DNA of 26,373 bases, taken from positions 1 through 26,373 of IMG/VR virus record IMGVR_UViG_3300030060_004022; one strand, 5' to 3'. The notes below the pieces were generated by a model. It was not told the DNA's origin, did no database searches, and saw nothing but the letters and a program-made list of their open reading frames with translations. How positions within the stretch are numbered: position 1 is the first letter of the stretch; each line of letters begins with the position of its first letter. Source of the stretch: a virus. A program made the translations under genes and the position numbers. Shown here piece after piece: positions 2,341 to 26,373 of this stretch.

Positions 2341-2503
2341 TATCTTTAATCTCAGGTTGTTGATCATCGCTCGCCTCATAAAGATTATTACATATTCTAC
2401 CTACATTTTTAAGCTCTGACTTTAATAATTTAACCTGTTCTTCAAGTTTACCTATTTTTTCTAACAACAAATCAAACGATACATTATTTATTTTTGTTTT
2501 CAT
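2333..2503 (-). CDS. Small coiled-coil protein (56 residues)
   Basis: A short gene reading MKTKINNVSFDLLLEKIGKL at its start and ending EIKDND. Support comes from the junctions. ATG 2503 overlaps the TAA of the protease gene as TAATG, and the strong Shine-Dalgarno GGAGG sits seven bases before the ATG. Its own TGA at 2333-2335 overlaps the ATG of the next gene as ATGACTGA. Residues 12-36 (LLLEKIGKLEEQVKLLKSEL) have leucine-rich heptad spacing, so a short dimeric coiled coil is likely. No domain is recognised. It may be an adaptor or chaperone for a neighbouring structural protein, but nothing in the sequence decides this. Confidence 0.6.
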   Translation of the reverse strand: MKTKINNVSFDLLLEKIGKLEEQVKLLKSELKNVGRICNNLYEASDDQQPEIKDND

Positions 2504-3288
2504 TATTCTGCCTCCGTGATTAGTTTAGTCCAATCAATTTTAAAAGATGGTACCACTAATACAACATTATTTAATACCTGTACACCAAACTCAGTAGCAC
2601 CTACATCGATAGCTATAACATATCCTATAAATCTTCCTTTAGAATCAAAAACACCAGAGCCTGATGAACCCTCCCAAGCGTAGGAGTCTAGATATATAAA
2701 GTTGGTACCATTCGCACCCGTAACATGTCCGCCGATAGACAAAGGCCCTATGTTATTTGGATAGCCTGTGTATATGACCTTGCTGTGTAAGCCAAAGGCG
2801 TGGCGCCATTGTTGCCTTTTTGGTAAATCTCTCGGCATTTTAACCGCAACTCTATTTGGTATTGGCTCAACTTGTATGACGGCGTAATCTATCGCATCAT
2901 TTTTTTCTATGATTTTAACGCAATCGTATAACTCATCGGCATAAACTACCTTTGTAAACTCACAGGGCCCTGCTAACCCGTGGGCGACCGTGACTACAAA
3001 ATAGCTTCCGTAAGATTTAATATATGTACCAGAAAATGTTGATACATGTCCTTCAATAGAATCAATGGATATTATTCTAACTGCGCTATCTCTAGATTTT
3101 TTAACTGCTTTCTTGTAAGAAACCGAGTGATATTTTGATACCTGTTCTTGACTATCGATTATAATTTTATCATTTACTGAATTGTCAACTAAGGCGCTGT
3201 AAAATGATAGACCTATCAAAAAGACTACGAGCCCCCAACTTAGGCCTCTGTAAAACAGTTTACGAAAAGTTTCTAAGAAAGAAATCAT
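2503..3288 (-). CDS. Membrane-anchored trypsin-like serine protease
   Basis: A 261-residue chymotrypsin-fold (S1/S1C-like) peptidase. A hydrophobic segment at about residues 18-34 (GLVVFLIGLSFYSALV) follows a basic amino terminus and looks like a signal anchor, which would place the catalytic domain outside the cytoplasm. The triad reads His103 in VTVAHG, Asp134 in AIDYAVI and Ser209 in G-S-S-G-S-G, with spacing normal for the family. No PDZ domain follows, so it is not a DegP/DegQ-type protein; the length fits a bare protease domain. Its ATG overlaps the stop of the 1181-residue gene (TAATG). The last codons ACG GAG GCA GAA encode T-E-A-E and also supply the Shine-Dalgarno of the next gene. 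Possible roles are processing of virion or envelope proteins; the substrate is unknown. Confidence 0.82.
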   Translation of the reverse strand: MISFLETFRKLFYRGLSWGLVVFLIGLSFYSALVDNSVNDKIIIDSQEQVSKYHSVSYKKAVKKSRDSAVRIISIDSIEGHVSTFSGTYIKSYGSYFVVTVAHGLAGPCEFTKVVYADELYDCVKIIEKNDAIDYAVIQVEPIPNRVAVKMPRDLPKRQQWRHAFGLHSKVIYTGYPNNIGPLSIGGHVTGANGTNFIYLDSYAWEGSSGSGVFDSKGRFIGYVIAIDVGATEFGVQVLNNVVLVVPSFKIDWTKLITEAE

Positions 3289-6876: not shown

Positions 6877-7635
6877 CTACGCAAAAGCCTCAGTCTTTAG
6901 TAACTCTGCTGTATCTTCCCAAGTCTCTACCTCATAAGCGGCTCCATTTGGATGCTGACGGAGAGCTTGCGCTAAGGTGTGGTCGTTACCCGGCGCAGGG
7001 ATTCTATCACCTACAAAGTGAATCTGGTTGTGCTCTAGTGCTTCAGCGAAATAACGAGGTATGACCTGCGATTTGTCGTTGCCTTTGTCGAAGATGTCGA
7101 TACTGACAGCACCCCCGATAACAAAGTCAAGTTCGGGATACTTTTCGCTTAACTTTTTAACGATTCTCTTTCTCTCGCCAAAGTCACCCTCCCACTCTTT
7201 AAACTTTTGACGCTGCTCTGTTGTAGCATCTATGCCGACGATGGAGAAGTTCATCATACCGGGGCGTTTCTCCCAGTGTGTGCCTGTCTTGATTGGAAAA
7301 TCTGATTTTGCTACGTAAGAGTTTAACGAACGTGTAAGGTTCTTGGCTCCGGTAAACTTGTTTTCGTAAACCTCAATCCACTCACTATATCCATTTTCGT
7401 TGATTTGGTCGCGGCGTTGATAAAAAACATTACCCATGCAGGAAAACACCCCATCAACCATATTCATAATTTGTAAACCAAGCTGATCTACTATCCTGAT
7501 AAACGTACCACCCGATACTATGTAGACTTCCTTATCTTTTGCCCAACGGCTAAATTGTTTTTTGAATACCGGTGTAATTTTAGATTTAGCTGGCGTGAGT
7601 GTTCCATCCACATCAAACAAGTAAATATTGCTCAT
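6877..7635 (-). CDS. Eukaryotic-type phosphomannomutase (HAD superfamily)
   Basis: A 252-residue enzyme expected to convert mannose-6-phosphate to mannose-1-phosphate, the precursor of GDP-mannose. It belongs to the PMM branch of the HAD superfamily, not the ManB/AlgC alpha-phosphohexomutase family usual in bacteria. Visible hallmarks: DVDGTLT at residues 8-14 (nucleophile Asp8, acid/base Asp10), the S-G-G-T loop at 41-44, substrate-cap signature KRPGMMNFS (123-131), GGAVSIDIF followed by GNDKS (174-189), and metal-binding FVGDRIPAPGND (207-218). Length matches the family (about 245-260). Its ATG overlaps the cupin stop as ATGA, so the two are translationally coupled. Together they suggest a phage supply of activated mannose or a derived sugar for glycosylating virion, DNA or host surface; the acceptor is not identifiable. 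Confidence 0.9.
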   Translation of the reverse strand: MSNIYLFDVDGTLTPAKSKITPVFKKQFSRWAKDKEVYIVSGGTFIRIVDQLGLQIMNMVDGVFSCMGNVFYQRRDQINENGYSEWIEVYENKFTGAKNLTRSLNSYVAKSDFPIKTGTHWEKRPGMMNFSIVGIDATTEQRQKFKEWEGDFGERKRIVKKLSEKYPELDFVIGGAVSIDIFDKGNDKSQVIPRYFAEALEHNQIHFVGDRIPAPGNDHTLAQALRQHPNGAAYEVETWEDTAELLKTEAFA

Positions 7636-7964
7636 CTGTCGTAATCATCCGCGAGGCGAACCACGTCATCAAGATGCGGTGTTGATACTTCCATAAGTCT
7701 GACCATCTCTTTACCAGCACCAAACCTATGTACCTGATTTGGTTCAACGTGCAGCGTATGACCTATTTTGATTTTTTGTGGCGGACTGTCTTCATCAGTC
7801 CAGTTCAAAAGTGTCCCTTCTATAACATATATTGTTTCTTCTTTTAATTTGTGGTACTGTAGCGATAACCTCTGTTTAGGTTCAATATGTAGCATCTTAG
7901 CCACGTAGCCGTCAGTTTCAGCCCAAATATATTCAAAGCCCCAAGGCTTTTCTACGATCCTCAT
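7632..7964 (-). CDS. Cupin, mannose-6-phosphate isomerase type II-like
   Basis: A 110-residue single-domain cupin. I placed the start at ATG 7964 (MRIVEKPWGFE), because GGAGATAAT precedes it and the E-K-P-W-G-x-E opening is typical of the C-terminal isomerase domain of mannose-1-phosphate guanylyltransferase/phosphomannose isomerases; the upstream in-frame ATG at 8015 would lie inside the membrane-protein gene. Cupin motif 1 is seen as LSLQYHKLKEETIYVIEGTL (residues 33-52, metal ligands likely His38 and Glu42/43) and motif 2 as VEPNQVHRFGAG (73-84, His79). It lacks a nucleotidyltransferase domain. Fusion-like coupling (ATGA) to phosphomannomutase supports a role in producing mannose-6-phosphate from fructose-6-phosphate. 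A dTDP-sugar epimerase-like role is less likely given the neighbour. Confidence 0.8.
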   Translation of the reverse strand: MRIVEKPWGFEYIWAETDGYVAKMLHIEPKQRLSLQYHKLKEETIYVIEGTLLNWTDEDSPPQKIKIGHTLHVEPNQVHRFGAGKEMVRLMEVSTPHLDDVVRLADDYDR

Positions 7965-7965
7965 A

Positions 7966-8310
7966 TTATCTCCAAAATAGTTGTACGCCCACGATGGCGA
8001 ATGAAAGTGCAGCACAGATCATTGTTTTAGTTGTGAACATGCTTTCATGCAAAAAGTGCCATGTTAACAACGGAAAAGTCAAATAAGACATGGTGAATAT
8101 CAAGAACCTAGGACCCCATACTTCACCCCATTCTTCATAACAAAGTTTAACACCATACCAAAAGCATATACCGGTGGGGATAGAGAATAACATTGCCGAC
8201 AGTATCGGTTTATCCTTCCACCAATCCCAGACAAACTGAGCGTTAAGCTGAAACCACCCTAGCGTTTGCCCAAGTGCGAATAGAACACATGCTAAAAAAA
8301 TCTTACTCAT
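7966..8310 (-). CDS. Small four-helix membrane protein
   Basis: A 114-residue, very hydrophobic protein with about four membrane helices (residues 2-20, 36-54, 68-86 and 94-112), rich in Trp and Phe. Size and topology are those of small multidrug resistance/DMT-type transporters, but I see no conserved Glu equivalent to EmrE Glu14 in the first helix; that position region reads LGQTLGWFQL. Its ATG overlaps the stop of the methyltransferase-like gene (TAATG) and its stop is one base before the cupin start, so it belongs to the same unit as the two mannose genes. A role in sugar-lipid or nucleotide-sugar transfer across the membrane would fit the neighbours but is speculation. Confidence 0.6.
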   Translation of the reverse strand: MSKIFLACVLFALGQTLGWFQLNAQFVWDWWKDKPILSAMLFSIPTGICFWYGVKLCYEEWGEVWGPRFLIFTMSYLTFPLLTWHFLHESMFTTKTMICAALSFAIVGVQLFWR

Positions 8311-9370: not shown

Positions 9371-9664
9371 TTATCCTCTTATTAATTTTTTATTTTGGTT
9401 TAAAGATTTTTCAATAATATCAGGTGCACCGACCACAACAATTTCAGTGCCGGTGTGTCCGCGATTAATAGTTAACTTAGTGAACCTATGAGATTCACTT
9501 AAATTATCGGGCAGCGCACCTTGCTCCCTCAGTTGCTGCATTCTTGCTTCTTCGCGTATCATCACTACATGCTCTGGGTTTACAAACACCTCTCTCAAAG
9601 TATAATCCTGTTTTTTGCTGGTTAGCATATTATTCTGACATATCTCCGTTAGTCGAACTAGCAT
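9371..9664 (-). CDS. Conserved phage protein of unknown function (97 residues)
   Basis: I set the start at ATG 9664 (MLVRLTEICQ). It is preceded by ATGGAGGCAGC, an excellent Shine-Dalgarno that also encodes the M-E-A-A-C end of the previous protein; the in-frame ATG at 9706 lies deep inside that gene and has no such site. Residues 24-36 read REVFVNPEHVVMI and residues 62-80 KLTINRGHTGTEIVVVGA, giving an open-beta pattern reminiscent of small FlbD-like regulators (K-L-T opening, a V-N-P-x-x-V-x-x-I turn). That resemblance is weak. Nearly the size of GroES but without a mobile loop or the GroES amino-terminal pattern. Function unknown. Confidence 0.6.
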   Translation of the reverse strand: MLVRLTEICQNNMLTSKKQDYTLREVFVNPEHVVMIREEARMQQLREQGALPDNLSESHRFTKLTINRGHTGTEIVVVGAPDIIEKSLNQNKKLIRG

Positions 9665-9861
9665 GCTGCCTCCATCGGGTAAACATCCCTTCTTTTCAGT
9701 TTCCATTCGTGACCGTTAGCATAAACTTGGTAGACAGCGTTGGTACCACTTAAATAGACACCCACGGTTGGTCGTTCGGTATACCGCAGTCTCATTCCCT
9801 TATCAGTTTCACACCATAGTTCAACGCCCTGTGGGATATGCACTAAATCTCCTTGGTTCAT
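9658..9861 (-). CDS. Small beta-rich protein directly after groEL (67 residues)
   Basis: A short protein beginning MNQGDLVHIPQGVELWCETD and ending M-E-A-A-C. Two adjacent ATGs (9864 and 9861) exist; I prefer 9861, because GGAGG is then seven bases away and the ATG overlaps the groEL stop as TGATG, exactly as at 2503. The G-D-L-V-x-I-P opening followed by alternating hydrophobic residues (MRLRYTERPTVGVYLSG) and Gly/Asn turns suggests an SH3-like or OB-like barrel. Its tight coupling to groEL raises the idea of a chaperonin partner, but there is no GroES signature and no mobile loop. Function unknown. Confidence 0.58.
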   Translation of the reverse strand: MNQGDLVHIPQGVELWCETDKGMRLRYTERPTVGVYLSGTNAVYQVYANGHEWKLKRRDVYPMEAAC

Positions 9862-11444
9862 CATTCTGCCTCCGTTTGTATAATACCATAATTAGTTGTG
9901 ATTAATGTCCCAGCACAGCTAGAGGCATTTTGCAGGGCTGTTTTAGTAACTTTCACTGGATCAATAATACCACTACTGATCATGTTAGTCAAGCTGTTAT
10001 TTCTAAAATCCCAACCATTTCCGTGATCAGATGTTAAAACTTTATCAATTATTATATCTGGTGAAAGACCTGCGTTAAGGGCCATTTGTGTTATTGGCGC
10101 ACGGCAAGCGTTTACCACGATAGTCACTCCATAGCTTTGATCTCCGTGCGGGTCAGAACCTGTGACCACAAGGTCTTGCGAAGCCCTGAGTAGGGCGGTA
10201 CCGCCGCCACCAACAATGCCTTCGTCTTGAGCGGAACGAACAGCCTCTAGAGCATCTTCGACTCTGTGTTTCTTTTCAATCATTTCAACCTGAGTGGCGC
10301 CCCCAACTTTAATTACTGCAACACCTGAGACGAGTCTAACGATTCTGCCTTGCATAAGTTCTGCTAATTGCATATCATCGCAACTTTTAATATCATTTTT
10401 TAAAGATTCGATTCTCTTCTCGATTTGTTCAAAATCAGCATTACCTCCAACAAACGTAGTTGTATACTTGTTACCTTCGACACTTTTAGCAGAGCCTAAA
10501 TGTTTGAGCTGTACTTCGTTAAGTTTGATTCCCGATTCTCTTGTGACGAAGAAAGCACCTACCGAGGCTGCGAGATCACTCATTGTATCCCTGCGTTCAT
10601 TTCCGTAGAAAGGAGCTTTGATGGCTGCCACCTTTAACGTACCCCTCATAGCATTCATGATCAAGGCCGCTAGTGCCTGACCTTCAACCTCTTCGGCCAC
10701 AATGATGAGAGGCCGGCCTTCTCTTGCAATCATTTCTAAAATAGGCAAAATGGGCTCAACAGCGTCAATTTTATAATCGGTCACAAGAATGAGAGGTTCA
10801 TTATAAGACATAACAGAACGCCTTTCGTCAGTGATGAATGCAGATGCAGCAACACCAGCAGGCACCTTGAACCCCTCTTCAATGTCGATAGATGTATCAA
10901 GTGAACGTGATTCTTCAATTGTAATCGAGCCGTCTTGCCCCACCTTATCAATAGCCATAGCAACCAAGTCACCTATGGTTGAGTCGTTGTTAGCTGATAT
11001 GGTTGCGATGTGTTTAATGTCATCGATGCTAGTGACTGGTGTTGATTGCTCTGATAGCTTGTTGCATATCTCCTTCACTGTATTAGTGATGCCTCGTTGA
11101 AGCTCAATAGGCGCAGCACCGGCAGCAATGTGCTTTTGTGATTCTTGTAAGATTGCTCTCGCAAGGATGGTTGATGTGGTTGTACCATCACCAGCAGTCT
11201 CGTTGGTTTCGATAGCTGCTTGTCTGGCTACCTGTACAGCAGCATTCTCGATTGGATCTTCCAAAGCTACAAAGTGTGCTACAGTCACTCCGTCTTTCGT
11301 AACGAAAGGCGCCTTTCCTTTCTCTTGTAGTAGGACATTCCTACCGCGTGGGCCAAGTGTGGATGCCACATTATCAGCTAGGACATTCACACCACTCATA
11401 ATCTTTTGTTGTAGCGATTGATTGTTGTCGTATTCGCGACTCAT
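9861..11444 (-). CDS. groEL: Phage-encoded GroEL-type chaperonin
   Basis: A 527-residue group I chaperonin, expected to form an ATP-driven folding ring. ATPase residues are intact: TLGPRGRNV (29-37), Asp51 in FVTKDGVTVA, GDGTTTSTILA with Asp86, Asp397 in HRVEDAL (E. coli Asp398) and the GGGGTALLR loop (412-420). The apical domain differs: where E. coli has RGYLSPYF with Tyr199, Tyr203 and Phe204, this protein reads AGVAASAF (197-204 region), so two aromatic substrate/GroES contacts are lost, while the L-P-x-L-E hydrophobics are kept. The flexible GGM tail is missing; it ends YGIIQTEAE. Start ATG 11444 follows AGAGGTGTAA. A perfect sigma-70 promoter lies just upstream. No groES is in the window. 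Phage GroELs are known (for example Pseudomonas phage EL); the client here may be a virion protein. Confidence 0.97.
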   Translation of the reverse strand: MSREYDNNQSLQQKIMSGVNVLADNVASTLGPRGRNVLLQEKGKAPFVTKDGVTVAHFVALEDPIENAAVQVARQAAIETNETAGDGTTTSTILARAILQESQKHIAAGAAPIELQRGITNTVKEICNKLSEQSTPVTSIDDIKHIATISANNDSTIGDLVAMAIDKVGQDGSITIEESRSLDTSIDIEEGFKVPAGVAASAFITDERRSVMSYNEPLILVTDYKIDAVEPILPILEMIAREGRPLIIVAEEVEGQALAALIMNAMRGTLKVAAIKAPFYGNERRDTMSDLAASVGAFFVTRESGIKLNEVQLKHLGSAKSVEGNKYTTTFVGGNADFEQIEKRIESLKNDIKSCDDMQLAELMQGRIVRLVSGVAVIKVGGATQVEMIEKKHRVEDALEAVRSAQDEGIVGGGGTALLRASQDLVVTGSDPHGDQSYGVTIVVNACRAPITQMALNAGLSPDIIIDKVLTSDHGNGWDFRNNSLTNMISSGIIDPVKVTKTALQNASSCAGTLITTNYGIIQTEAE

Positions 11445-13106: not shown

Positions 13107-13760
13107 TTAAATAATTATGTCCGCGATTCCCAATTCGACCGCTTCTTCTGCTGACAAGTATACATTGACCTTGCGCTCAAGAAGTTTCTTTAAATCTTTC
13201 TTGGTCATGTTAGTCTCAGCTACTAAGGCGTCGATATAGTCTTTTTGAATTTGCTGCATCGCTTCCATCTCGTTTGCGAGATTCGGAAGTGAACCGTGAC
13301 TGCCGCCAATGACCGAGTGTATCATCACTCGACAATATTTGCCAATCTTTCTTTTGCCCTTGGTGCCGGCAGCGAGGATGAGGACACCAGCAGACATCAC
13401 TTTGCCCATTCCTACTGTATGTATCTCTGTGGATTCTCTCACTTGCCGCATAACATCGTACAGGGCGAACATATCATCGGCCGAGCCGCCATACGTACAC
13501 ACATAAAACCCAATCGGTTTTTCTTCCTTGCGAACTTTGTTGACTTCATCCAAGTACAACAGGGCGTGAACTAATTCCGCTACCTTCTCATCCATGACTT
13601 CCGTGAACAACCCAATCAATCTAAGATCGGGCTCCTGTGGCGGTGCGCCAAGCAGTTCTTGAATTATTTGTTCCTGCTCTTCAGCCGAAAGCGGCTCTAT
13701 TTGTTTTTGTTCTGTAGACGACAAGCTCTCTACAAGTTTTTTAATTTTATCAATTACCAT
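13107..13760 (-). CDS. ClpP-like serine protease (first of two), Asn at triad acid position
   Basis: A 217-residue ClpP/crotonase-fold protease. About 40 extra charged residues precede the core. Landmarks: FYVCTYGGSADDM (85-97, oxyanion-side GGS), GKVMSAGVLILAAGTKGKR (119-137) with nucleophile Ser123, CRVMIHS with His148, and YLSAEEAVELGIAD near the end. Where ClpP normally has the triad Asp (and where the second homologue in this window has Asp168 before W-F-L-D-A), this protein has Asn199 (VNVYLSA). Activity may be reduced or use another acid. No ClpX/ClpA ATPase is in the window, so it either works alone, as in phage prohead proteases, or borrows host partners. Starts at ATG 13760, overlapping the previous gene by 11 nt. 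Confidence 0.85.
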   Translation of the reverse strand: MVIDKIKKLVESLSSTEQKQIEPLSAEEQEQIIQELLGAPPQEPDLRLIGLFTEVMDEKVAELVHALLYLDEVNKVRKEEKPIGFYVCTYGGSADDMFALYDVMRQVRESTEIHTVGMGKVMSAGVLILAAGTKGKRKIGKYCRVMIHSVIGGSHGSLPNLANEMEAMQQIQKDYIDALVAETNMTKKDLKKLLERKVNVYLSAEEAVELGIADIII

Positions 13761-14224: not shown

Positions 14225-14899
14225 TTACTTGGATGTGATTTTTTGAAGAATTCTTTCTGCAAGTTCTTCAACCATTTTTTCTTTGGTCTGCTTGACTTGA
14301 AGACGAGCAGCTACTCGACGAGCAACTTCATTAACAACTGCTTCCTCATCATCTGCTTCCATCATCGGCTCTTCTTCGGGAGCCATTGCGTCGGCGTCGT
14401 CACCCATGTCGCCCATATCATCAGCTGCCTCTTCGTCATCCATGTCGACTTCAACTTCGTCGCCGAGAACATCTTCAAGGGCGCGCTCTAGAGCACCCAT
14501 GAAATCATCAACAGAGACCATCTGACCGCCGGCATCGGGGCCGTCCATGTCCATCTCGGCGTCACCCATTTCGTCTTCGGCTGCGTCCATATCGTCCATT
14601 GCGTCCATTTCGTCCTCTTCTTCTCTCATGGGGTCGCGCATGCCGGGCTCATCATCGTCATCACGCATACCGGGCTCATCACGCATACCGGGCTCATCAC
14701 GCATGCCGGGTTCTTCATCGCGCATTCCGGGCTCGTCATCGTCGCGCATGCCGGGGCGCATACCACCCTCATCCATCTCTTCATCATCGCGCTTAGCGTG
14801 ATACATCTCTTTGAGCTTGGCATCACCTACTGGGCCAATGTTAGCTAGTTTAAGAAACTGACGTACTTCAGCTTCAGTAAGTAAAGTTTTACGGGACAT
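14225..14899 (-). CDS. Acidic repeat protein, probable virion/scaffold-type protein
   Basis: A 224-residue, extremely acidic protein. The N-terminus (MSRKTLLTEAEVRQFLKLAN) is a short helical module that I recall from structural proteins of marine myoviruses. Residues about 46-92 are tandem copies of (E/D)PGMRD(E/D), encoded by 18-base DNA repeats. Next comes a Met/Asp/Glu-rich segment, a short ordered helix (VSVDDFMGALERALEDVL, about residues 128-145), more acidic sequence, and a basic coiled C-terminus ending ELAERILQKITSK. This composition resembles phage scaffold or internal head proteins but no homology is shown. Start ATG 14899 follows AAGGAGAGAAATTTAA. Its gene is the last before the terminator. 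Repeat number may vary between relatives by slippage. Confidence 0.65.
   Translation of the reverse strand: MSRKTLLTEAEVRQFLKLANIGPVGDAKLKEMYHAKRDDEEMDEGGMRPGMRDDDEPGMRDEEPGMRDEPGMRDEPGMRDDDDEPGMRDPMREEEDEMDAMDDMDAAEDEMGDAEMDMDGPDAGGQMVSVDDFMGALERALEDVLGDEVEVDMDDEEAADDMGDMGDDADAMAPEEEPMMEADDEEAVVNEVARRVAARLQVKQTKEKMVEELAERILQKITSK
14636..14762 (-). repeat. In-frame tandem repeat encoding PGMRD(E/D) units
   Basis: Units of about 18 bases, with longer variants of 21 and 24 bases, encode successive PGMRDE/PGMRDD peptides. Two copies are identical and adjacent (forward strand ACGCATACCGGGCTCATC at 14663-14680 and 14681-14698); the third (14699-14716) differs at four bases. All length variants keep the reading frame, which points to selection on the peptide. 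Confidence 0.85.
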
Positions 14900-15548: not shown

Positions 15549-16574
15549 TTACCAGACCCTATTAAGGATATGAGTTTTACTTTCCCCTAGTCCTGAACTA
15601 GTTTGTATGATAAACTCAGCACATGCTTGCAGTTCTGGTATACTCCGAGCGCCGCTATATGAAAGACCTGAGCGCAATCCTCTTTCTATGTCTTCAAGTA
15701 GTCTTTTAACACTGCCCCTATAGGGTACTCTAGCAGATACACCTTCGTGAGAAGAATACCTGCCCCTCCAATTTACTTGAGCCTCTTTGCTAGCCATGCC
15801 TCGATAGTTTTTCCACCTAGTACCATCACTTTCTTCTATAATTTTACCCGGTGTCTCATCAGTTCCAGAAAAAACAGAGCCACACATAACTGCGTCGGCG
15901 CCGGCGGCGAGCGCTTTCACCATGTCACCAGAATTCTTAATCCCCCCATCAGCAATGATCGCTACATTCCGATCTGTTTTAGCACATTCAAAAATAGTTT
16001 CTAGTCCCGGCATGCCGTGTCCTGTTTGAATACGCGTTGAACATATAGAACCGCCACCTATATTGCAGCGAACACTATCGGCGCCCCAGTCTGCAAGGTC
16101 GTTTACTCCTTTTAAAGTTGCAACGTTCCCAGCCATAATGTGAAAGTCTGGGCCTAGTTCTTCTCTTAAAGCGGATAGGGCCTCTTTCATAAGTATATGA
16201 TGACCATGGGCAACATCAACACAAATAAAACTAGCGCCGGACTGTCTAGCCAATTTTGCTCGGAGTAGAAAATCATCTGAAATTCCTACGGCGGCGCCAA
16301 CGTTGATATCTTTACCTAAATCGCGTGACAAACTAATCATTTTTGATTGTTCTTGGACTGTGTTATACCTGTGAATTATAGCTGACCCGCCGAATTTACC
16401 AATTGCGGTGGCCATGGGAGCTTCAGATATAGTGTCCATCGGCGAAGACAGTATAGGAGTAGACAATCTTAACCCATTTCCTAGATCGGCATCTAAAGAT
16501 ACCTCTGACCTAGATTTTATGTCTGAATACTGAGGCACCAACAACACATCGTCGTATGATAAGGTTTTATTCAC
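15549..16574 (-). CDS. IMP dehydrogenase/GMP reductase family enzyme without CBS domains
   Basis: A 341-residue TIM-barrel enzyme of purine nucleotide interconversion. Catalytic loop GGGSICSTR with Cys178; phosphate-binding [10 protein letters not shown] (208-217) and MCGSVFSGT (230-238); N-terminal YDDVLLVP and SSPMDT. The CBS pair of typical IMPDH is absent, and length equals GMP reductase (about 345). CVDVAHGH (118-125) and AGNV (148-151) look like GMP reductase, whereas Arg272-Tyr273 in GRYSSHEG matches the Arg-Tyr dyad used by IMPDH for hydrolysis. So the reaction (IMP to XMP, or GMP to IMP) is not settled. Starts with GTG 16574, overlapping the thioredoxin stop as GTGA, with GGGAGGCACT upstream as Shine-Dalgarno. 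Probably helps adjust nucleotide pools in infection. Confidence 0.88.
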
Positions 16575-17659: not shown

Positions 17660-18427
17660 TTAATAGTTTATAGTTTGCAGTGTGGGAATTTTTACTAGCA
17701 TTTCAGCCACTTTGTCTTGTTGGACTTTGAATACTGCCTGTGACGACTTGTTTGCATTACTCTTCCCTAAGAGTGCTTTTACGCCGTTGTTCAACACCAA
17801 CCGGCCACGAAGACCAAAATCATATTCGTTGCCTTGCGAATCATTAAATACAATCCTCGCAGATGTTTTGCCTCTCCCCCATTTGAACACAGGTGTGTAC
17901 CGACAAATTGCATTATACAACGGAGTGTCTTTGAAATTATAAGCGTAATCTGTTTTTGTAGTTGTGTCCGTGACAATGATAGTCATGTCTTTGTTTTTAT
18001 CGGCAACATGCTCCTTCAAAATTTGCTTAAGCATGTCTCCACTCATTTCTTTCATCATATTATGGCTGGCGTCCGTAAAAGTTTTTCTAGCCTTGCTAAC
18101 ACTAGACTCAGAATTTTTCAAAGACGACACGATATTTTTTAAAGGATTAAAAAAGCTGTTCTGATTAATCACTCTGCTCGTGTTAATATAGTCGAACGAG
18201 CCAGTGTAGATGCTTTTCTTGCGCTTAGCTGAAATCATCTTTGTTGTGTGCAAATCAGACACTTCAATGTCTTGTTTATATTGGGTACCACCGCGATGAC
18301 GAACCTCAAACTCAGACAGCAGGTCTGGAAACAAAGCCGCCGCGAGGCCCCCTAAAAGTCTCGTCCCTAAATTAACTTCGTTAGCAATACCCTCTTCGTG
18401 TACTGAGCCATCTGTTTTCCAAGCCAT
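17660..18427 (-). CDS. Putative PD-(D/E)XK restriction endonuclease-like protein
   Basis: A 255-residue protein from ATG 18427 (MAWKTDGSVHEEGIANEVNL), which overlaps the methyltransferase stop as TAATG with AAGGAAG upstream; a longer in-frame start at 18457 is less likely. A possible nuclease core: Glu17 in the first helix (GIANE), then HRGGTQYKQDIEV with Asp53, and KMISAKRKKS with Lys68, i.e. the D-x(12-13)-S-x-K variant of PD-(D/E)XK, followed by TGSFDYINTS. The C-terminal half contains TIIVTDTTT and FGLRGRLVLNNG. Direct coupling to a site-specific methyltransferase is the classical gene arrangement of a type II restriction-modification system. Cleavage and specificity are inferred, not shown; it could be a phage nuclease for other DNA. 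Confidence 0.6.
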   Translation of the reverse strand: MAWKTDGSVHEEGIANEVNLGTRLLGGLAAALFPDLLSEFEVRHRGGTQYKQDIEVSDLHTTKMISAKRKKSIYTGSFDYINTSRVINQNSFFNPLKNIVSSLKNSESSVSKARKTFTDASHNMMKEMSGDMLKQILKEHVADKNKDMTIIVTDTTTKTDYAYNFKDTPLYNAICRYTPVFKWGRGKTSARIVFNDSQGNEYDFGLRGRLVLNNGVKALLGKSNANKSSQAVFKVQQDKVAEMLVKIPTLQTINY

Positions 18428-19398
18428 TATGTTTCTTCCTTTACTCTTTTTTTGCAAATTTGTATTGCATCTGGGTTTTTATCAATGAGAATAAATTCTC
18501 TGTTTAATTGTGAAGCAGCAACCCCTGTGGTTCCAGAGCCCGCTACTGGATCTAGTATAACATCGCCCTCGTCAGTAGTCAACTGAATTATTCTTTTTAA
18601 TAAAGAAATTGGCTTCTGAGTTGGGTATAGTCTAGACTCGGTGCCTTGAGCTAGGGAGTGTAAATCGTCCCATAGATCTGTACAAGGCTTGCCGTTTGAT
18701 TCGTGCTTATAAATCTTTTTGTATGGGTTGGCGCCGACTTTGGTGGGGAAATGCACGCGATCATCATCAACAAGTTTTAATAAATCTTGTTTAGAAAGTC
18801 GCCAACCGTTTGCCGGCTTATATGTAACGCCGTTGTGGGTTAGTGAATACAGCCTGTCTTTGTTCTTGGTCCGTTGCGTGGCTGTGTAAACAATGTGACC
18901 GAGAGCATAATTGCCTCTGCTATCTGTATTCTTGTAAGAATTTTTAGCGTAATATTCATCTAGTGGCTGGTACACTATATTGAACTTTGGTTTCTTAACT
19001 TTGGAACACCACAGGATCACATCAATCGTTGACCCAAGTTTTGTCTTAACATTATTTTTTGAGCGAGAGCGTTTCCAAAATATGGGCTGCACTCTCTTAA
19101 AATGTTTCTCGCAAATAACCAATGGGATGGTCATCTGATCTGCCGATATGTGGAAGAACAATGAGCCATCTTTTTTTAGTAACCGCTTACACTCTACTAC
19201 AATCGGTTCAACTAGCTTTGCGTATTCAGAACCACTGCTAAACACGTCATCAAACCCAAGCTGGCTGTCTGGGTTTAGCCTGTACTTTGCATCGGAGTTA
19301 AACGGTGGGTCCATGTAAACACAGTCAACAGACCCATCGCTCAACTTCTTTAATGATTCACGACTATCACCCAAGATGTATCTGGGTACATCACCCAT
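18427..19398 (-). CDS. Site-specific DNA methyltransferase (DPPF type, permuted order)
   Basis: A 323-residue amino-methyltransferase. Catalytic D-P-P-F (30-33) near the amino terminus is followed by the S-L-F-F-H-I strand (79-84), W-x-K-R-S-R-S (108-114), a long target-recognition region (about 140-240), T-D-L-W-D-D-L (240-246), Y-P-T-Q-K-P (258-263) and the SAM-binding D-P-V-A-G-S-G-T (283-290). The order IV before I marks the beta class; DPPF suggests adenine-N6 rather than cytosine-N4, but this is not certain. ATG 19398 overlaps the preceding stop by 8 nt; the longer frame would need TTG 19452 with no ribosome binding site. Coupled to the putative nuclease and co-transcribed from the promoter at 19665-19693. 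Confidence 0.9.
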   Translation of the reverse strand: MGDVPRYILGDSRESLKKLSDGSVDCVYMDPPFNSDAKYRLNPDSQLGFDDVFSSGSEYAKLVEPIVVECKRLLKKDGSLFFHISADQMTIPLVICEKHFKRVQPIFWKRSRSKNNVKTKLGSTIDVILWCSKVKKPKFNIVYQPLDEYYAKNSYKNTDSRGNYALGHIVYTATQRTKNKDRLYSLTHNGVTYKPANGWRLSKQDLLKLVDDDRVHFPTKVGANPYKKIYKHESNGKPCTDLWDDLHSLAQGTESRLYPTQKPISLLKRIIQLTTDEGDVILDPVAGSGTTGVAASQLNREFILIDKNPDAIQICKKRVKEET

Positions 19399-19639
19399 TG
19401 TCGGATTCACTTGAGATAATATCAAGGTTGTCGAGGATTGTGTCAATCTCAATTGTGCCTGTGTGCAATCGATATGCCTTTACCGCAGCGCGGATCTCGT
19501 CAAGATTAAGCCATCCGTTTTCCTTAAACTCAGATCGCAACTCCCGTCGTTGCTCTTTGTATGGCTCCATCGCATCTTCGATAGCTTTCAAAGAGCGGAT
19601 ATATTCTTTTACATATTGTCGTTTTTGTTTATCAGTCAT
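19391..19639 (-). CDS. GapR-like (DUF2312-like) small coiled-coil protein
   Basis: An 82-residue, helical, charged protein (MTDKQKRQYVKEYIRSLKAI...). The layout of a long charged coiled coil (ENAMEPYKEQRRELRSEF-type region, residues 17-38) followed by K-E-N-G-W-L-N-L-D-E-I-R-A-A-V-K resembles the DUF2312/GapR family (coiled coil, then A-K-x-N-G-F-D-x-x-x-L/I-R-x-x-V), nucleoid proteins that clamp overtwisted DNA. Similarity is by eye and moderate. The strongest ribosome binding site of the region (TAGGAGGTATA) precedes ATG 19639. First gene after the promoter at 19665-19693 and just before the methyltransferase, where restriction-modification systems often have a controller gene; it has no helix-turn-helix, so a C-protein role is unlikely. 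Confidence 0.6.
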   Translation of the reverse strand: MTDKQKRQYVKEYIRSLKAIEDAMEPYKEQRRELRSEFKENGWLNLDEIRAAVKAYRLHTGTIEIDTILDNLDIISSESDNG

Positions 19640-20396: not shown

Positions 20397-20418
20397 CTTT
20401 AAGTAGTATTACTTAAAG
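20397..20418. repeat. Perfect 9-bp inverted repeat before the J-domain gene
   Basis: CTTTAAGTA, four bases GTAT, TACTTAAAG. It spans the stop codon of the ClpP-like gene and ends four bases before the J-domain start codon. No T run follows, so it is not a typical terminator. It occupies the place of a ribosome binding site and could be a regulatory hairpin or an operator. Confidence 0.5.
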
Positions 20419-21014
20419 GTGATCTTGACCGACGTATCTATTTTAAGGTCAGGCACACGCAAATGATTAGCTAATTTATGCTTTTTACACTCTTTTGCAT
20501 CTAAAAACCAATCGGCGTGACCTTTATCGTGAACAATATCAAGGAAGTAATTTTCATCTTGGCCGCAATTTTCAGCCATCATATGATAAATCTTTTGGTT
20601 TAAGCGGTCTGTTTCTTCAGCGCTGACTTTAACTTCCTCTACTTTACCCCAACTCATAGAACTAACGTCGTGAATCATAAGTGTTGCGTCTGAATCCATA
20701 TATCTTTTACCCGGCGCGCCAAAGCTGAATAATATGGCTCCGCAGGACATTGCTTTCCCTTGTACGATTGTTGCGACAGGTATGGAAGAGTGTTGGATAT
20801 CTGAAATCATTGACATTAGGCTGTACACCTGACCGCCATAACTGTCGATGATAACTGGTACAACTGGCTGTCCAGTGCTCTGCGCTTTGGACATTAATTC
20901 AGAAAAAGTCTTTGCTGCTGCTTCATCAAATTTGTTAACCCTGATGATCACAGGGAGTTCATCTCTAAGCTTCGCCTCTTTAAGAAGAGGACTAAATGTT
21001 TTAATTACGTTCAT
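20409..21014 (-). CDS. ClpP-like serine protease (second of two), complete triad
   Basis: A 201-residue ClpP-fold protease. Visible: VIIDSYGGQVYS (54-65), GKAMSCGAILFSFGAPGKR (86-104) with Ser90 as nucleophile, ATLMIHD with His115, and HADWFLDAKE with Asp168 as third member. So unlike the other homologue in this window (13107-13760) it has all three residues. The Ser is followed by Cys rather than Ala. The insertion after the His strand (SSMSWGKVEEV) matches the handle region. Size fits ClpP (about 200). Starts at ATG 21014, two bases after the dnaE stop, with TTAGGATAA upstream. No Clp ATPase nearby. May process phage proteins or act with host ClpX/ClpA. Confidence 0.88.
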   Translation of the reverse strand: MNVIKTFSPLLKEAKLRDELPVIIRVNKFDEAAAKTFSELMSKAQSTGQPVVPVIIDSYGGQVYSLMSMISDIQHSSIPVATIVQGKAMSCGAILFSFGAPGKRYMDSDATLMIHDVSSMSWGKVEEVKVSAEETDRLNQKIYHMMAENCGQDENYFLDIVHDKGHADWFLDAKECKKHKLANHLRVPDLKIDTSVKITFK

Positions 21015-21016
21015 GT

Positions 21017-24000
21017 TTATCCTAATAGTTTGAATGTTTTGCCGACCGCGTAAGTCGAGAAGCCCCAGTTCTCATCATACTTAAGACGAGCCATGTATGG
21101 GCGGTTAAGATGTATAACATCTTTATGAGGCTTGATACCCCAGCATCGGATACGAGTCGACTCATTGTTTGAGTCAATAACCTCGACAATCCAATAATCT
21201 TTTCCGTTTTTGGTTTTCTTTGGTGTAATCTTACGAGGTATAAACCAACACACCTGCAGGCCTTCATCAAACTCAGAGATTGGCGGAATATACTTTTCTT
21301 GTAACTTCTCCACTGTTTCTGTGCTGATAACTAAGTTGATCGGGAACACTCCGGTCAGGTCAGTCTTGAACTGGATCACTTCTTCCTCGCTGAAGTCTCC
21401 TTCGGGTCTGAATAACTCAATGTTTTCTCCAAACTTCTTGAGGTTCTTGGGTCGTTCTACCACACAGGCAGACCAGAAATGCTTACGACCAGAGAAGCGA
21501 TCATCCACGATGTTATCTAGTGCCCCACCTCGACACAGAGCATCAAGCGCCTTCTTGTTTAGTTTAGAATAAGATACATCTTCTCGGAACAATAGGTCCT
21601 CCGCGTTCATAAATGGCCGGTTCTCAAGAATCTGCTCGATGGCTGACATACCTAGGCCCTTGATTGACGTAAGTGGTTGGATAAGAGTTTTACCGTCCTC
21701 GCTGATCTCCCATACTGTTCCTGACTTATTAACATCAAGCGGTGCGATATCAAACCCAAACTTCTTTGCAATGTTGATTGCCTTTTCTTTCCGAGTCTCT
21801 GGTTCTTTATCCAAGAACGCAGCCATCCACTCAGCAGGATAGTAGTTCCAAAGCCAAGCGCACTGATATGATATAATCGAATACGATACAGCGTGTGACT
21901 TGTTGAATCCATAGCCGGAGAAAAACTCAAACTTGTCCCATAAGGATTGCGCTTCGTCCCTGTTAATCTTATTAGTTATACAGCCCTTAATAAATTTTTC
22001 GTGAAGCTTAGCCTTATAACTGTTCTTACCTGTCCCCTTCTTGGTCAGCACTTTGCGAAGCATGTTACCTTCGTCTAGCGTCAGACCACCAAGCTTGTGA
22101 GCGAGCAAAGCAATCTGCTCTTGGAAGATTAGGAACCCAAAAGTTTCTTCAGTGATCTCTCGCGCTTCTTCAGATAGATACTTGATGTAGTGTGGGCTTT
22201 CCTTGGCCTCCACATAGTCAGCATCGACGCCAGCAGACAGTGGGCCGGGACGGAAGATGGAAGTGATAGCGGACAAATCAATAATGTTGTTTGGCTTTAC
22301 CTTCGTACAAAACTGTTGGGCTCCGTGTTCTGTAAACTGAAAGATACCAGCCCATTTGCCGGGGTGGAACACATTCCGATATACCTCTTGATCGTTCAAG
22401 TCTAGTATATCAGGGTGCAAATACTCTTCATAGTAATCTCGGATTTGTGCGAACGTTGGCTCTTCGACACCGTGATGGCGCTTCAGGATATGATAGATCG
22501 CACCCTCCATCATCTTTAGAGTAGAGAGGCCGAGCAAGTCGAACTTGATGAAACCCATCGGTTCAAGATGTCGGACGTTCTGGCCCTCAGCCCACGGAGC
22601 CTGACGGACACCGCCTGAGTTAATCAGAGGCATGCTCTTGTCTAGATCCTCTGCGATAACCACACCACCAGCATGTCTAGAGCATGAGCGAACCTGACCT
22701 ACCAGACCCTCAACGTGCGTCTTGACTGCTGGGTGCTTCGCGAGATACTGCCTCAGTGTTGGCGAAAACTCCATGACCTCTTGCCATGTTGGTGCATATA
22801 CTCCAGCTTTGATACCATGTTTCTGTTTGGCTAGTGGAGTTGCTTCGCGAATCATGATCGATGTGACAGTGTTAACTTCTGTGAAGGGAACATTGTATAG
22901 CTTGGAAATGTCTTTGATTAGAGATTTAAGCTGTAGTGTGTTCCAGTTCGAGATAGGCGCGACACAATCTTGACCCCACATCTCTACTAGCTTTTCCTTT
23001 AAAGCCATGCTATCGGACACATCGTAATCGATATCAGGATAGTCGGTAGCGTCTGACCGCAAGAATCGCGAGAACAGAAGCCCGTGCTTAATTGGGTCGA
23101 CTTGTGTAATATTCAGAGCGTACGCAACTAAGGAGCCAGCCGCAGATCCCCGGCCGGGGCCCGGAAGCATCATGTTTGTGGCTACATCAACAATTGATTT
23201 CATAGTCAGGAAGTATTTAGAGAATCCGCGGTCATCAATTACATGTAGTTCGTGCCTAAGACGATCGGTGTACTCTTTATTTGTGTGAAGCCCCTTATCT
23301 TTGAGTCCTTCGAGTGCGTAGTTAACTAATGCTTGTGTAGCAGTGAATCCCGCAGGAACAACAAATTCGGGGAGGCGAACTGTATTGTCGGGCAGGAACG
23401 ATTCAATGCGCTCGAAGGCGATCCTATACGTTTCCTCAATACTTTTCAAGACTACATTGTCGTCGTACTCGAACCCCGTGGATTTTGAGTATTCCTTGTA
23501 GCTTTCCCAGATCTGGTCACCATTTTTTGGATACAACTCATATCCAATTTCTTCCACTCCTTCGGGAAGCTCTGACTCATCTTCGGCCCAAGAAGGTCGT
23601 CCCTTACCAAGCCAACCAAGACGCTTGTAAAGCTCACGATCCTTCCAAGCGTCAGGGTTGGGGTAGTGGCTATCGGCTGTCGTGACCAGTCCAACGCCAA
23701 ACTCTTCAGCAACTTGAATTACGTACTTGTTAAGTTCATGCTGCTCTTTAATATTGTTCCATTGTATCTCGGCATACCAGCGATCACCGAAAATGTCGAC
23801 CATGCGACGTGTGGATTCGCGCATCGCATCCAATACTGCTTCATCCCCCTCTTCTCGGTTCTCCCAGTAGTTTCCGGCGTACACCCCACCAAGACAAGCA
23901 GAAGAAGCAATGATGCCTTCATTGTACTTCTCCAGTAGTGCATAGTCGATACGTGGATAACGATAAAAATTCTCCGGTTGGTATGATTCGGATACCAACT

Positions 24001-24448
24001 TAAATAGGTTGTTCAACCCAGTTTGGTTCTGTGCCAGCAGGACAAGGTGACGGCGGCGCTTAAGAATACCTTGAATCTTCTTACTATCGCCTTCGTCTTC
24101 TACCGTGGCCCCAGATTGAGCATCCTTCTTGATGGCTCGGGCGCGCTTCTTATCAGCCATCGCCTGCTCGTAAGCATCGCGCCAATCAGAGATAGAAGGC
24201 GTGAAATATGCCTCACATCCAAAGATAGGCTTAAACTCTTTGCCTTCTTCTTGCATTCTCTTAGCGTGCAATACTTGATAAGCTAGACCGTTCATATTTC
24301 CGTGGTCTGTAAGAGCCAAGGCGTCACACCCGTTCTCATAAGCAAAGTCCATGTGGTCTTGCGGGTAACCAATAGCATCAAAGATAGAGCCTGCTACTGA
24401 GTGAGCATGCAAGCCCACAAACTTAATTTTGGAATCCTTACGATTCAT
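21017..24448 (-). CDS. dnaE: DNA polymerase III alpha subunit (C-family polymerase)
   Basis: A full-length, 1143-residue replicative polymerase. The PHP domain is intact at the amino terminus (GLHAHSVAGS, then ALTDHGNMNG, SACLGG and TTADSHYP). The palm has GPGRGSAAGSLVAY followed by YPDIDYDVSD with the two catalytic aspartates, and the third in GFIKFDLLGLSTLK. Further on are FQFTEHGAQQF, IFRPGPLSAGVD, IFQEQIALLAHKLGG and GYGFNKSHAVSYS, typical of the fingers. An OB-type segment (WIVEVIDSNNESTRIRCWG) lies near the C-terminus. E. coli DnaE is 1160 residues; no intein is inserted. ATG 24448 follows CGGAGGGATAA. It is expressed from its own promoter at 24471-24499. Phage DnaE occurs in some large phages; here it likely replicates the phage genome, perhaps with the host beta clamp. 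Confidence 0.98.
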   Translation of the reverse strand: MNRKDSKIKFVGLHAHSVAGSIFDAIGYPQDHMDFAYENGCDALALTDHGNMNGLAYQVLHAKRMQEEGKEFKPIFGCEAYFTPSISDWRDAYEQAMADKKRARAIKKDAQSGATVEDEGDSKKIQGILKRRRHLVLLAQNQTGLNNLFKLVSESYQPENFYRYPRIDYALLEKYNEGIIASSACLGGVYAGNYWENREEGDEAVLDAMRESTRRMVDIFGDRWYAEIQWNNIKEQHELNKYVIQVAEEFGVGLVTTADSHYPNPDAWKDRELYKRLGWLGKGRPSWAEDESELPEGVEEIGYELYPKNGDQIWESYKEYSKSTGFEYDDNVVLKSIEETYRIAFERIESFLPDNTVRLPEFVVPAGFTATQALVNYALEGLKDKGLHTNKEYTDRLRHELHVIDDRGFSKYFLTMKSIVDVATNMMLPGPGRGSAAGSLVAYALNITQVDPIKHGLLFSRFLRSDATDYPDIDYDVSDSMALKEKLVEMWGQDCVAPISNWNTLQLKSLIKDISKLYNVPFTEVNTVTSIMIREATPLAKQKHGIKAGVYAPTWQEVMEFSPTLRQYLAKHPAVKTHVEGLVGQVRSCSRHAGGVVIAEDLDKSMPLINSGGVRQAPWAEGQNVRHLEPMGFIKFDLLGLSTLKMMEGAIYHILKRHHGVEEPTFAQIRDYYEEYLHPDILDLNDQEVYRNVFHPGKWAGIFQFTEHGAQQFCTKVKPNNIIDLSAITSIFRPGPLSAGVDADYVEAKESPHYIKYLSEEAREITEETFGFLIFQEQIALLAHKLGGLTLDEGNMLRKVLTKKGTGKNSYKAKLHEKFIKGCITNKINRDEAQSLWDKFEFFSGYGFNKSHAVSYSIISYQCAWLWNYYPAEWMAAFLDKEPETRKEKAINIAKKFGFDIAPLDVNKSGTVWEISEDGKTLIQPLTSIKGLGMSAIEQILENRPFMNAEDLLFREDVSYSKLNKKALDALCRGGALDNIVDDRFSGRKHFWSACVVERPKNLKKFGENIELFRPEGDFSEEEVIQFKTDLTGVFPINLVISTETVEKLQEKYIPPISEFDEGLQVCWFIPRKITPKKTKNGKDYWIVEVIDSNNESTRIRCWGIKPHKDVIHLNRPYMARLKYDENWGFSTYAVGKTFKLLG

Positions 24449-26198: not shown

Positions 26199-26206
26199 CT
26201 TATCCT

Positions 26207-26373
26207 CTACTTTTGTTTATTTTTTAAACCATACGAATCATGACCGCCGTGTCTCCATGTTGGGTGCATGATGTGAGTTTTTTGATTATAATGACTCCAT
26301 CCAAGGGCGTGACCTATCTCATGTTCTAATACTCTTTCTTTCATACCGTTTATGGGTAATATGAATATTTTGG
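26207..26373 (-). CDS. Metzincin-type zinc metalloprotease, C-terminal end only
   Basis: The frame is open at the window edge and ends at TAG 26207-26209, giving the last 54 residues (KIFILPINGMKERVLEHEIG...). It holds the complete metzincin zinc-binding consensus HExxHxxGxxH as HEIGHALGWSH and, eight residues later, a Met-turn (T-H-I-M-H-P), matching matrixin/M10-like proteases. The C-terminus is short and basic, without a hemopexin or peptidoglycan-binding domain. The N-terminal propeptide or catalytic start is outside the window, so latency (cysteine switch) cannot be judged. Likely virion-associated or released to cut host surface proteins; substrate unknown. Its stop is 9 bases before the TTG of the next gene. 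Confidence 0.78.
   Translation of the reverse strand, partial: KIFILPINGMKERVLEHEIGHALGWSHYNQKTHIMHPTWRHGGHDSYGLKNKQK

Follow-up and report, generated by a model that had tools for sequence, protein, structure and literature searches.

A phage chaperonin with a complete ATP site

How a GroEL encoded by a phage is closed, whether by a GroES of its own, by another protein or not at all, is the question raised by a gene in the window. The window, i.e. the whole stretch analysed here, is one complete IMG/VR record of 26,373 bases, and nothing past its ends is visible. The gene is an uninterrupted ORF on the minus strand that begins on the side of position 11444 (Table 1). Its product matched Cpn60_TCP1 (PF00118) of Pfam with an E value of 5e-61 over residues 22–519 and the PHROG 5725 chaperonin GroEL family with an E value of 5e-131. 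Among the NCBIfam models, it scored above the cut-off of the GroEL subfamily NF000592 (565 bits vs 397) and slightly below that of the equivalog TIGR02348 (554.7 vs 582.1). The solved structures matched by the protein were GroELs throughout the list, and the identity to E. coli GroEL was 41.9% over the alignment. The window protein is a genuine phage-encoded group I GroEL chaperonin. A search of cellular genomes found no close relatives and hence gave no clue to a prophage or host. The best cultured-phage match in the collection searched was the GroEL of Flavobacterium phage immuto, with 43.6% identity. In a GroEL tree the phage family of the window formed one group; a long branch connects this group to immuto, and that join is unreliable.

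A sequence-only reading of the locus had named residues 51, 86 and 397 as the three ATPase aspartates. Alignment with E. coli GroEL placed them at D52, D87 and D398, in agreement with this assignment, and the ATP-site set D52, D87, T89–T91, D398 and G415 (E. coli numbering) was complete. We infer from these conserved residues that the window GroEL would bind ATP and act as an ATPase. The same reading had noted that the flexible GGM tail is missing; the protein indeed stops at TTNYGIIQTEAE. For comparison we used 79 bacterial GroELs from many phyla, which were chosen by similarity to a mixed alignment and are thus a non-random set; a GGM tail was present in 73 of them.

Table 1. Positions of the features discussed, in window coordinates.
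Feature	Position	Strand	Basis
groEL, phage group I chaperonin, 527 aa	9861..11444	-	ORF; Pfam, PHROG and NCBIfam; E. coli alignment
ATPase Asp51 codon (= E. coli D52)	11292..11294	-	alignment
ATPase Asp86 codon (= E. coli D87)	11187..11189	-	alignment
Apical underlying segment, residues 196-203 A-G-V-A-A-S-A-F (E. coli 197-204 R-G-Y-L-S-P-Y-F)	10836..10859	-	alignment
ATPase Asp397 codon (= E. coli D398)	10254..10256	-	alignment
GroEL C-terminus, residues 518-527 NYGIIQTEAE, without GGM tail	9864..9893	-	translation
68-aa ORF, sharing ATGA with the groEL stop; SH3-like beta barrel by model	9658..9864	-	ORF; model
111-aa ORF that follows the 68-aa gene (an internal start would give 97 aa); no assigned function	9371..9706	-	ORF
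Right end of the record; groES projected beyond it, outside the window	26199..26373	-	collinear relatives

Apical and salt-bridge residues are lost at different depths of the family

The E. coli segment GYLSPYF (198–204) paired with GVAASAF of the window, with no gaps nearby. Y199 is replaced by V198 and Y203 by A202, the residue at R197 is Ala, and F204 is retained. The earlier claim that the two tyrosine positions read Val and Ala, with no aromatic residue at either, was therefore borne out. In the bacterial comparison set Tyr199, Ser201 and Tyr203 were invariant and position 386 was always Glu (79/79 each); the Y199/Y203 aromatic pair is a usual trait, which none of the family models used formally requires.

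Within the phage family, position 203 was Ala in 33 of 35 sequences and Gln in the other two. Six further members had Ala (five, including three near-identical copies) or Ser (one), and Y203 was absent from all 41. Of the 35 sequences, 23 had Tyr or Phe at position 199 and 12 had Val; the latter form a single clade that contains the window, and Y199V is confined to it. Since Tyr203 is lost family-wide and Val199 occurs in one clade, the loss of Tyr203 is an old family trait and that of Tyr199 a recent one. R197 was lost in 35/35 members (Ser, Ala or Gly), and E386, part of an inter-subunit contact with R197 that is broken upon ATP binding (PMC3326522), was mostly Gln across the family (n = 35), as it is in the window (E386Q). 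At E461, which forms an inter-ring salt bridge with R452 in E. coli (PMC7174398), 34 of 35 members have Ser, and the window GroEL has Thr at position 452 (E. coli numbering). Y360Q was also seen in the window protein.

The surface of helices H and I (L234, L237, L259, V263, V264, N265 and R268) was kept or conservatively replaced. L237, L259, N265 and R268 were retained in 35/35 family members, V263I and V264M were likewise found in 35/35, and position 234 was Leu, Ile or Met (Ile or Met in a few).

Y199 and Y203 are among the residues whose mutation alters substrate binding (PMC3268035). An altered client range of the family GroEL is plausible because the E. coli Y203 is itself a substrate contact, seen to touch non-native Rubisco in cryoEM maps of GroEL (PMC10723157). 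Taken with the losses at R197 and E461 and the Y199V of the window clade, the absence of Y203 suggests that client binding and allostery may have been retuned.

A groES gene lies upstream of groEL in the relatives

No GroES was found within the 26,373-base window. To look beyond it, we used 37 relatives found in IMG/VR, of which 12 longer contigs were chosen for the groES search. Pfam detected Cpn10 in 8 of the 12 and missed G003, G004, G005 and G007; a family HMM built from the Pfam-found Cpn10s added three contigs, with E values of 1e-15 to 2e-21. Cpn10 was also present in a further contig of 195 kb (G013). The 33.9-kb contig G007 has groEL and gave no groES match; only about 17.9 kb lie upstream of its groEL, which is barely long enough. 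In 12/12 contigs measured, groES was on the same strand as groEL and 13.0–18.8 kb upstream. A search started from GroES yielded six more contigs with both genes, and six GroES contigs without GroEL stop short of the expected place of groEL, as worked out from their coordinates. No related contig that clearly covers the groES–groEL interval was thereby found to lack Cpn10.

The window is collinear over most of its length with G001, whose GroEL is 94% identical, and with G012, G009, G010 and G002. Projection from 15 contigs, namely those that carry groES and match the right part of the window, places the groES stop at window positions of about 27,700–29,200, i.e. 1.3–2.8 kb past the right edge. 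Because of this synteny with relatives whose GroELs are at most about 94% identical, the window phage probably carries groES just beyond the end of the record. The earlier remark that no GroES is in view thus holds literally for the window, and the record probably just ends too early. More generally, since the family splits the two genes by about 15–18 kb, little can be concluded when a short viral contig shows no groES.

The linked upstream gene encodes a predicted Cpn10 with a mobile-loop anchor

The GroES of the relatives is 88 aa long and matched the PHROG co-chaperonin GroES family with an E value of 3e-8. Its similarity to known Cpn10 is weak (19–33 bits in Pfam; under the NCBIfam cut-offs), and a tblastn search against cultured phages gave no match at E 0.1. 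The AlphaFold model has a pLDDT of 80.4, with a low-confidence stretch at residues 17–21, just before the mobile-loop tripeptide. With this model, the top Foldseek rows were all Cpn10/GroES and the clear matches were only Cpn10, GroES or gp31. VIA gave Z scores of 10.4 to 8.1 for 15 Cpn10/gp31 entries, the best to Thermus Cpn10 (10.4) and those to T4 gp31 at 9.2–9.3. Unrelated folds reached at most 6.4, and the single intermediate row (Z 7.8) was a chain of a CrClpP-S2c entry. The product of the linked upstream gene is accordingly modelled with a Cpn10 fold.

Its mobile loop reads SLIVLPED. Across 27 sequences I24 was near-invariant and L26 and P27 were invariant, so that the I-x-L anchor equivalent to I25-V26-L27 of E. 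coli GroES is present; there I25 and L27 are needed for GroEL binding, which is abolished by their replacement (PMC5575113). In the closer relatives of the window the roof-hairpin region is about 5 residues shorter than that of E. coli GroES, and the residue aligned with its Tyr71 is not Tyr. With T4 gp31, which has no roof loops, the chamber that receives the capsid protein gp23 is slightly larger (PMC6318259); a larger chamber from the shortened roof of the phage GroES would be a guess by analogy.

A GroES with the I-x-L anchor and a GroEL with the helix H/I docking residues make a normal lidded pair the most likely arrangement. We put at roughly 0.85 the probability that the window GroEL belongs, as the large subunit, to a GroEL/GroES pair encoded entirely by the phage, with the two genes about 15–18 kb apart on the same strand. 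The sequence-only reading had taken the absence of GroES as a hint of a non-standard lid. Against this stand the fixed upstream place of Cpn10 in the spanning relatives, its predicted fold and its anchor; a groES elsewhere in the genome, which that reading had itself named as counter-evidence, was found through close relatives and not on the window record.

The two genes could also serve different partners, the phage GroEL working with host GroES and the phage Cpn10 with host GroEL. Such independent use is conceivable for genes that lie separate, and T4 gp31, to which the phage GroES is structurally close, does pair with host GroEL (PMC6318259). The co-occurrence of both genes at similar spacing family-wide fits a dedicated pair instead, and we regard the exchange of partners as improbable.

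The genes directly downstream of groEL

The small gene reported earlier as coupled directly downstream of groEL does overlap its stop codon. The model of the 68-aa protein is confident (pLDDT 92.7) and shows an SH3-like barrel with no long disordered mobile loop. Cpn10 was absent from its 50 listed structure matches, none of which fell below E 0.038. The gene abuts groEL or lies very near it in about 22 nearer relatives. Two deeper members (L022 and L024) have a related gene about 770 bp from groEL, and in L023 and L025–L035 no match was found within 3.5 kb of groEL. The 111-aa gene stays near groEL somewhat deeper into the family.

The beta-rich character and position of the 68-aa protein had been pointed out in the earlier reading, and its overlap with groEL, its adjacency in the nearer relatives and its confident beta-barrel model would suit a non-standard lid or cofactor. 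An SH3-like model without a Cpn10 match, an adjacency restricted to the nearer part of the family and the Cpn10 gene that the family already has leave this role scarcely credible, and we rejected the protein as a lid. An operon neighbour of groEL is the best description of the 68-aa gene.

Comparison with known phage chaperonins

According to a passage of PMC7185714 that cites Marine et al. 2017, some phages carry genes for GroEL as well as GroES, and in a few there is GroEL only. Phage GroEL/GroES pairs, marine viruses included, are already known, and the window is a divergent variant of them. Flavobacterium phage immuto and Bacteroides phage DAC16 likewise combine a group I GroEL and a phage Cpn10 in one genome. 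Their GroES-like gene lies directly upstream of groEL, whereas that of the window family is 13–19 kb upstream, and they keep Y/F199, P202 and Y203 where the window has V198 and A202. Marine et al. are said to have linked, in 2017, the order of the large- and small-subunit genes to GroEL phylogeny in virioplankton.

With the E. coli system the window family shares the ATPase aspartates, the helix H/I docking residues and the I-x-L anchor of GroES. The window GroEL differs from that of E. coli by Y199V, Y203A, R197A, E386Q, E461S, Y360Q and the lack of a GGM tail, and the GroES of the closer relatives by its shorter roof hairpin without an aligned Tyr71. T4 gp31 resembles this GroES as a divergent phage Cpn10 fold with a reduced roof; it differs in its longer mobile loop and in acting with host GroEL, whereas the family of the window phage also brings its own GroEL.

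Phages EL, OBP and AR9 encode GroEL-like ATPases in which, as in the window GroEL, the salt bridges between rings and those of allostery are changed, and which reportedly do without a co-chaperonin (PMC7185714, PMC9598537). The window GroEL might similarly work alone and lidless, as these single-ring or ring-splitting chaperonins do. The replacements at E461 and at position 452, the absent GGM tail and the lost R197–E386 ion pair (kept in AR9, unlike OBP; PMC9598537) would all suit such a protein. The three chaperonins are far more distant, though: AR9 is 21.9% identical to the window GroEL, and EL is 22% identical to GroEL (PMC7185714). The window family also keeps the helix H/I surface and, as judged from its relatives rather than the window record, a Cpn10 with the I-x-L loop. 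Nor would a single ring by itself exclude a lid, since human mHsp60–mHsp10 works both ways (PMC7174398). We consider lidless operation very improbable. With E461 gone, the window GroEL may operate as a single ring like the chaperonins of OBP and AR9 (PMC9598537). That the predicted lid-docking features are kept while Y203, the R197–E386 pair and the E461 contact are lost together may indicate a client-specialised, perhaps single-ring, lidded chaperonin for phage proteins, which we offer as a tentative suggestion.

For the lidded phage pair, the following cycle can be proposed. Heptameric GroEL rings would bind ATP at the conserved site, and unfolded phage or host proteins would bind the apical face, where helices H and I are conserved and the underlying 199–203 segment is altered. 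The phage's own 88-aa GroES would then dock by its I-x-L loop on the groove equivalent to L234/L237/M264 and close the cage. The losses of Y203, R197 and the GGM tail would retune client binding and allostery, with the lid retained. Residues, predicted fold and synteny are observed, and we infer the GroEL–GroES pairing, the change of clients and the number of rings. An uncultivated phage family keeps the GroES-docking surface and drops residues that do not vary among the sampled bacterial GroELs and that have been linked, in earlier work, to substrate binding and allostery. It offers a natural separation-of-function set in which the share of the GroEL apical surface that serves clients could be weighed against the share that serves the lid.

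Other genes in the window

All further genes described here are on the minus strand. Two ClpP-family proteases are encoded at 13107–13760 and 20409–21014 (PF00574, E 7e-33 and 1e-23), and a trypsin-like peptidase domain (PF13365, E 1e-9) at 2503–3288; the latter protein has a hydrophobic N-terminal stretch and is weakly similar to the protease part of RT-Protease defence proteins (E 3e-6). The 224-aa product of the gene at 14225–14899 is highly acidic, contains consecutive short repeats of the PGMRDD/E type and has no family match.

An N6/N4 DNA methylase (18427–19452; PF01555, E 3e-44) is followed, within 17660–19452, by a 265-aa protein, perhaps a partner nuclease, that matched no family. 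In G009 and G012 the interval shrinks to 90–514 bp, and it therefore looks like a mobile methylase cassette. At 6877–8015, a eukaryotic-type phosphomannomutase (PF03332, E 8e-31) adjoins a cupin that resembles the C-terminal part of mannose-6-phosphate isomerase (PF01050, E 8e-9), which suggests a phage mannose-sugar pathway. A purine-metabolism gene is also present on this phage, a 341-aa member of the IMP dehydrogenase/GMP reductase family at 15549–16574 (PF00478, E 7e-100). Finally, the gene at 21017–24448 encodes a DnaE-like, bacterial-type DNA polymerase III alpha of 1143 aa (PHROG 405, E 2e-234), whose best cultured-phage matches are about 30% identical.
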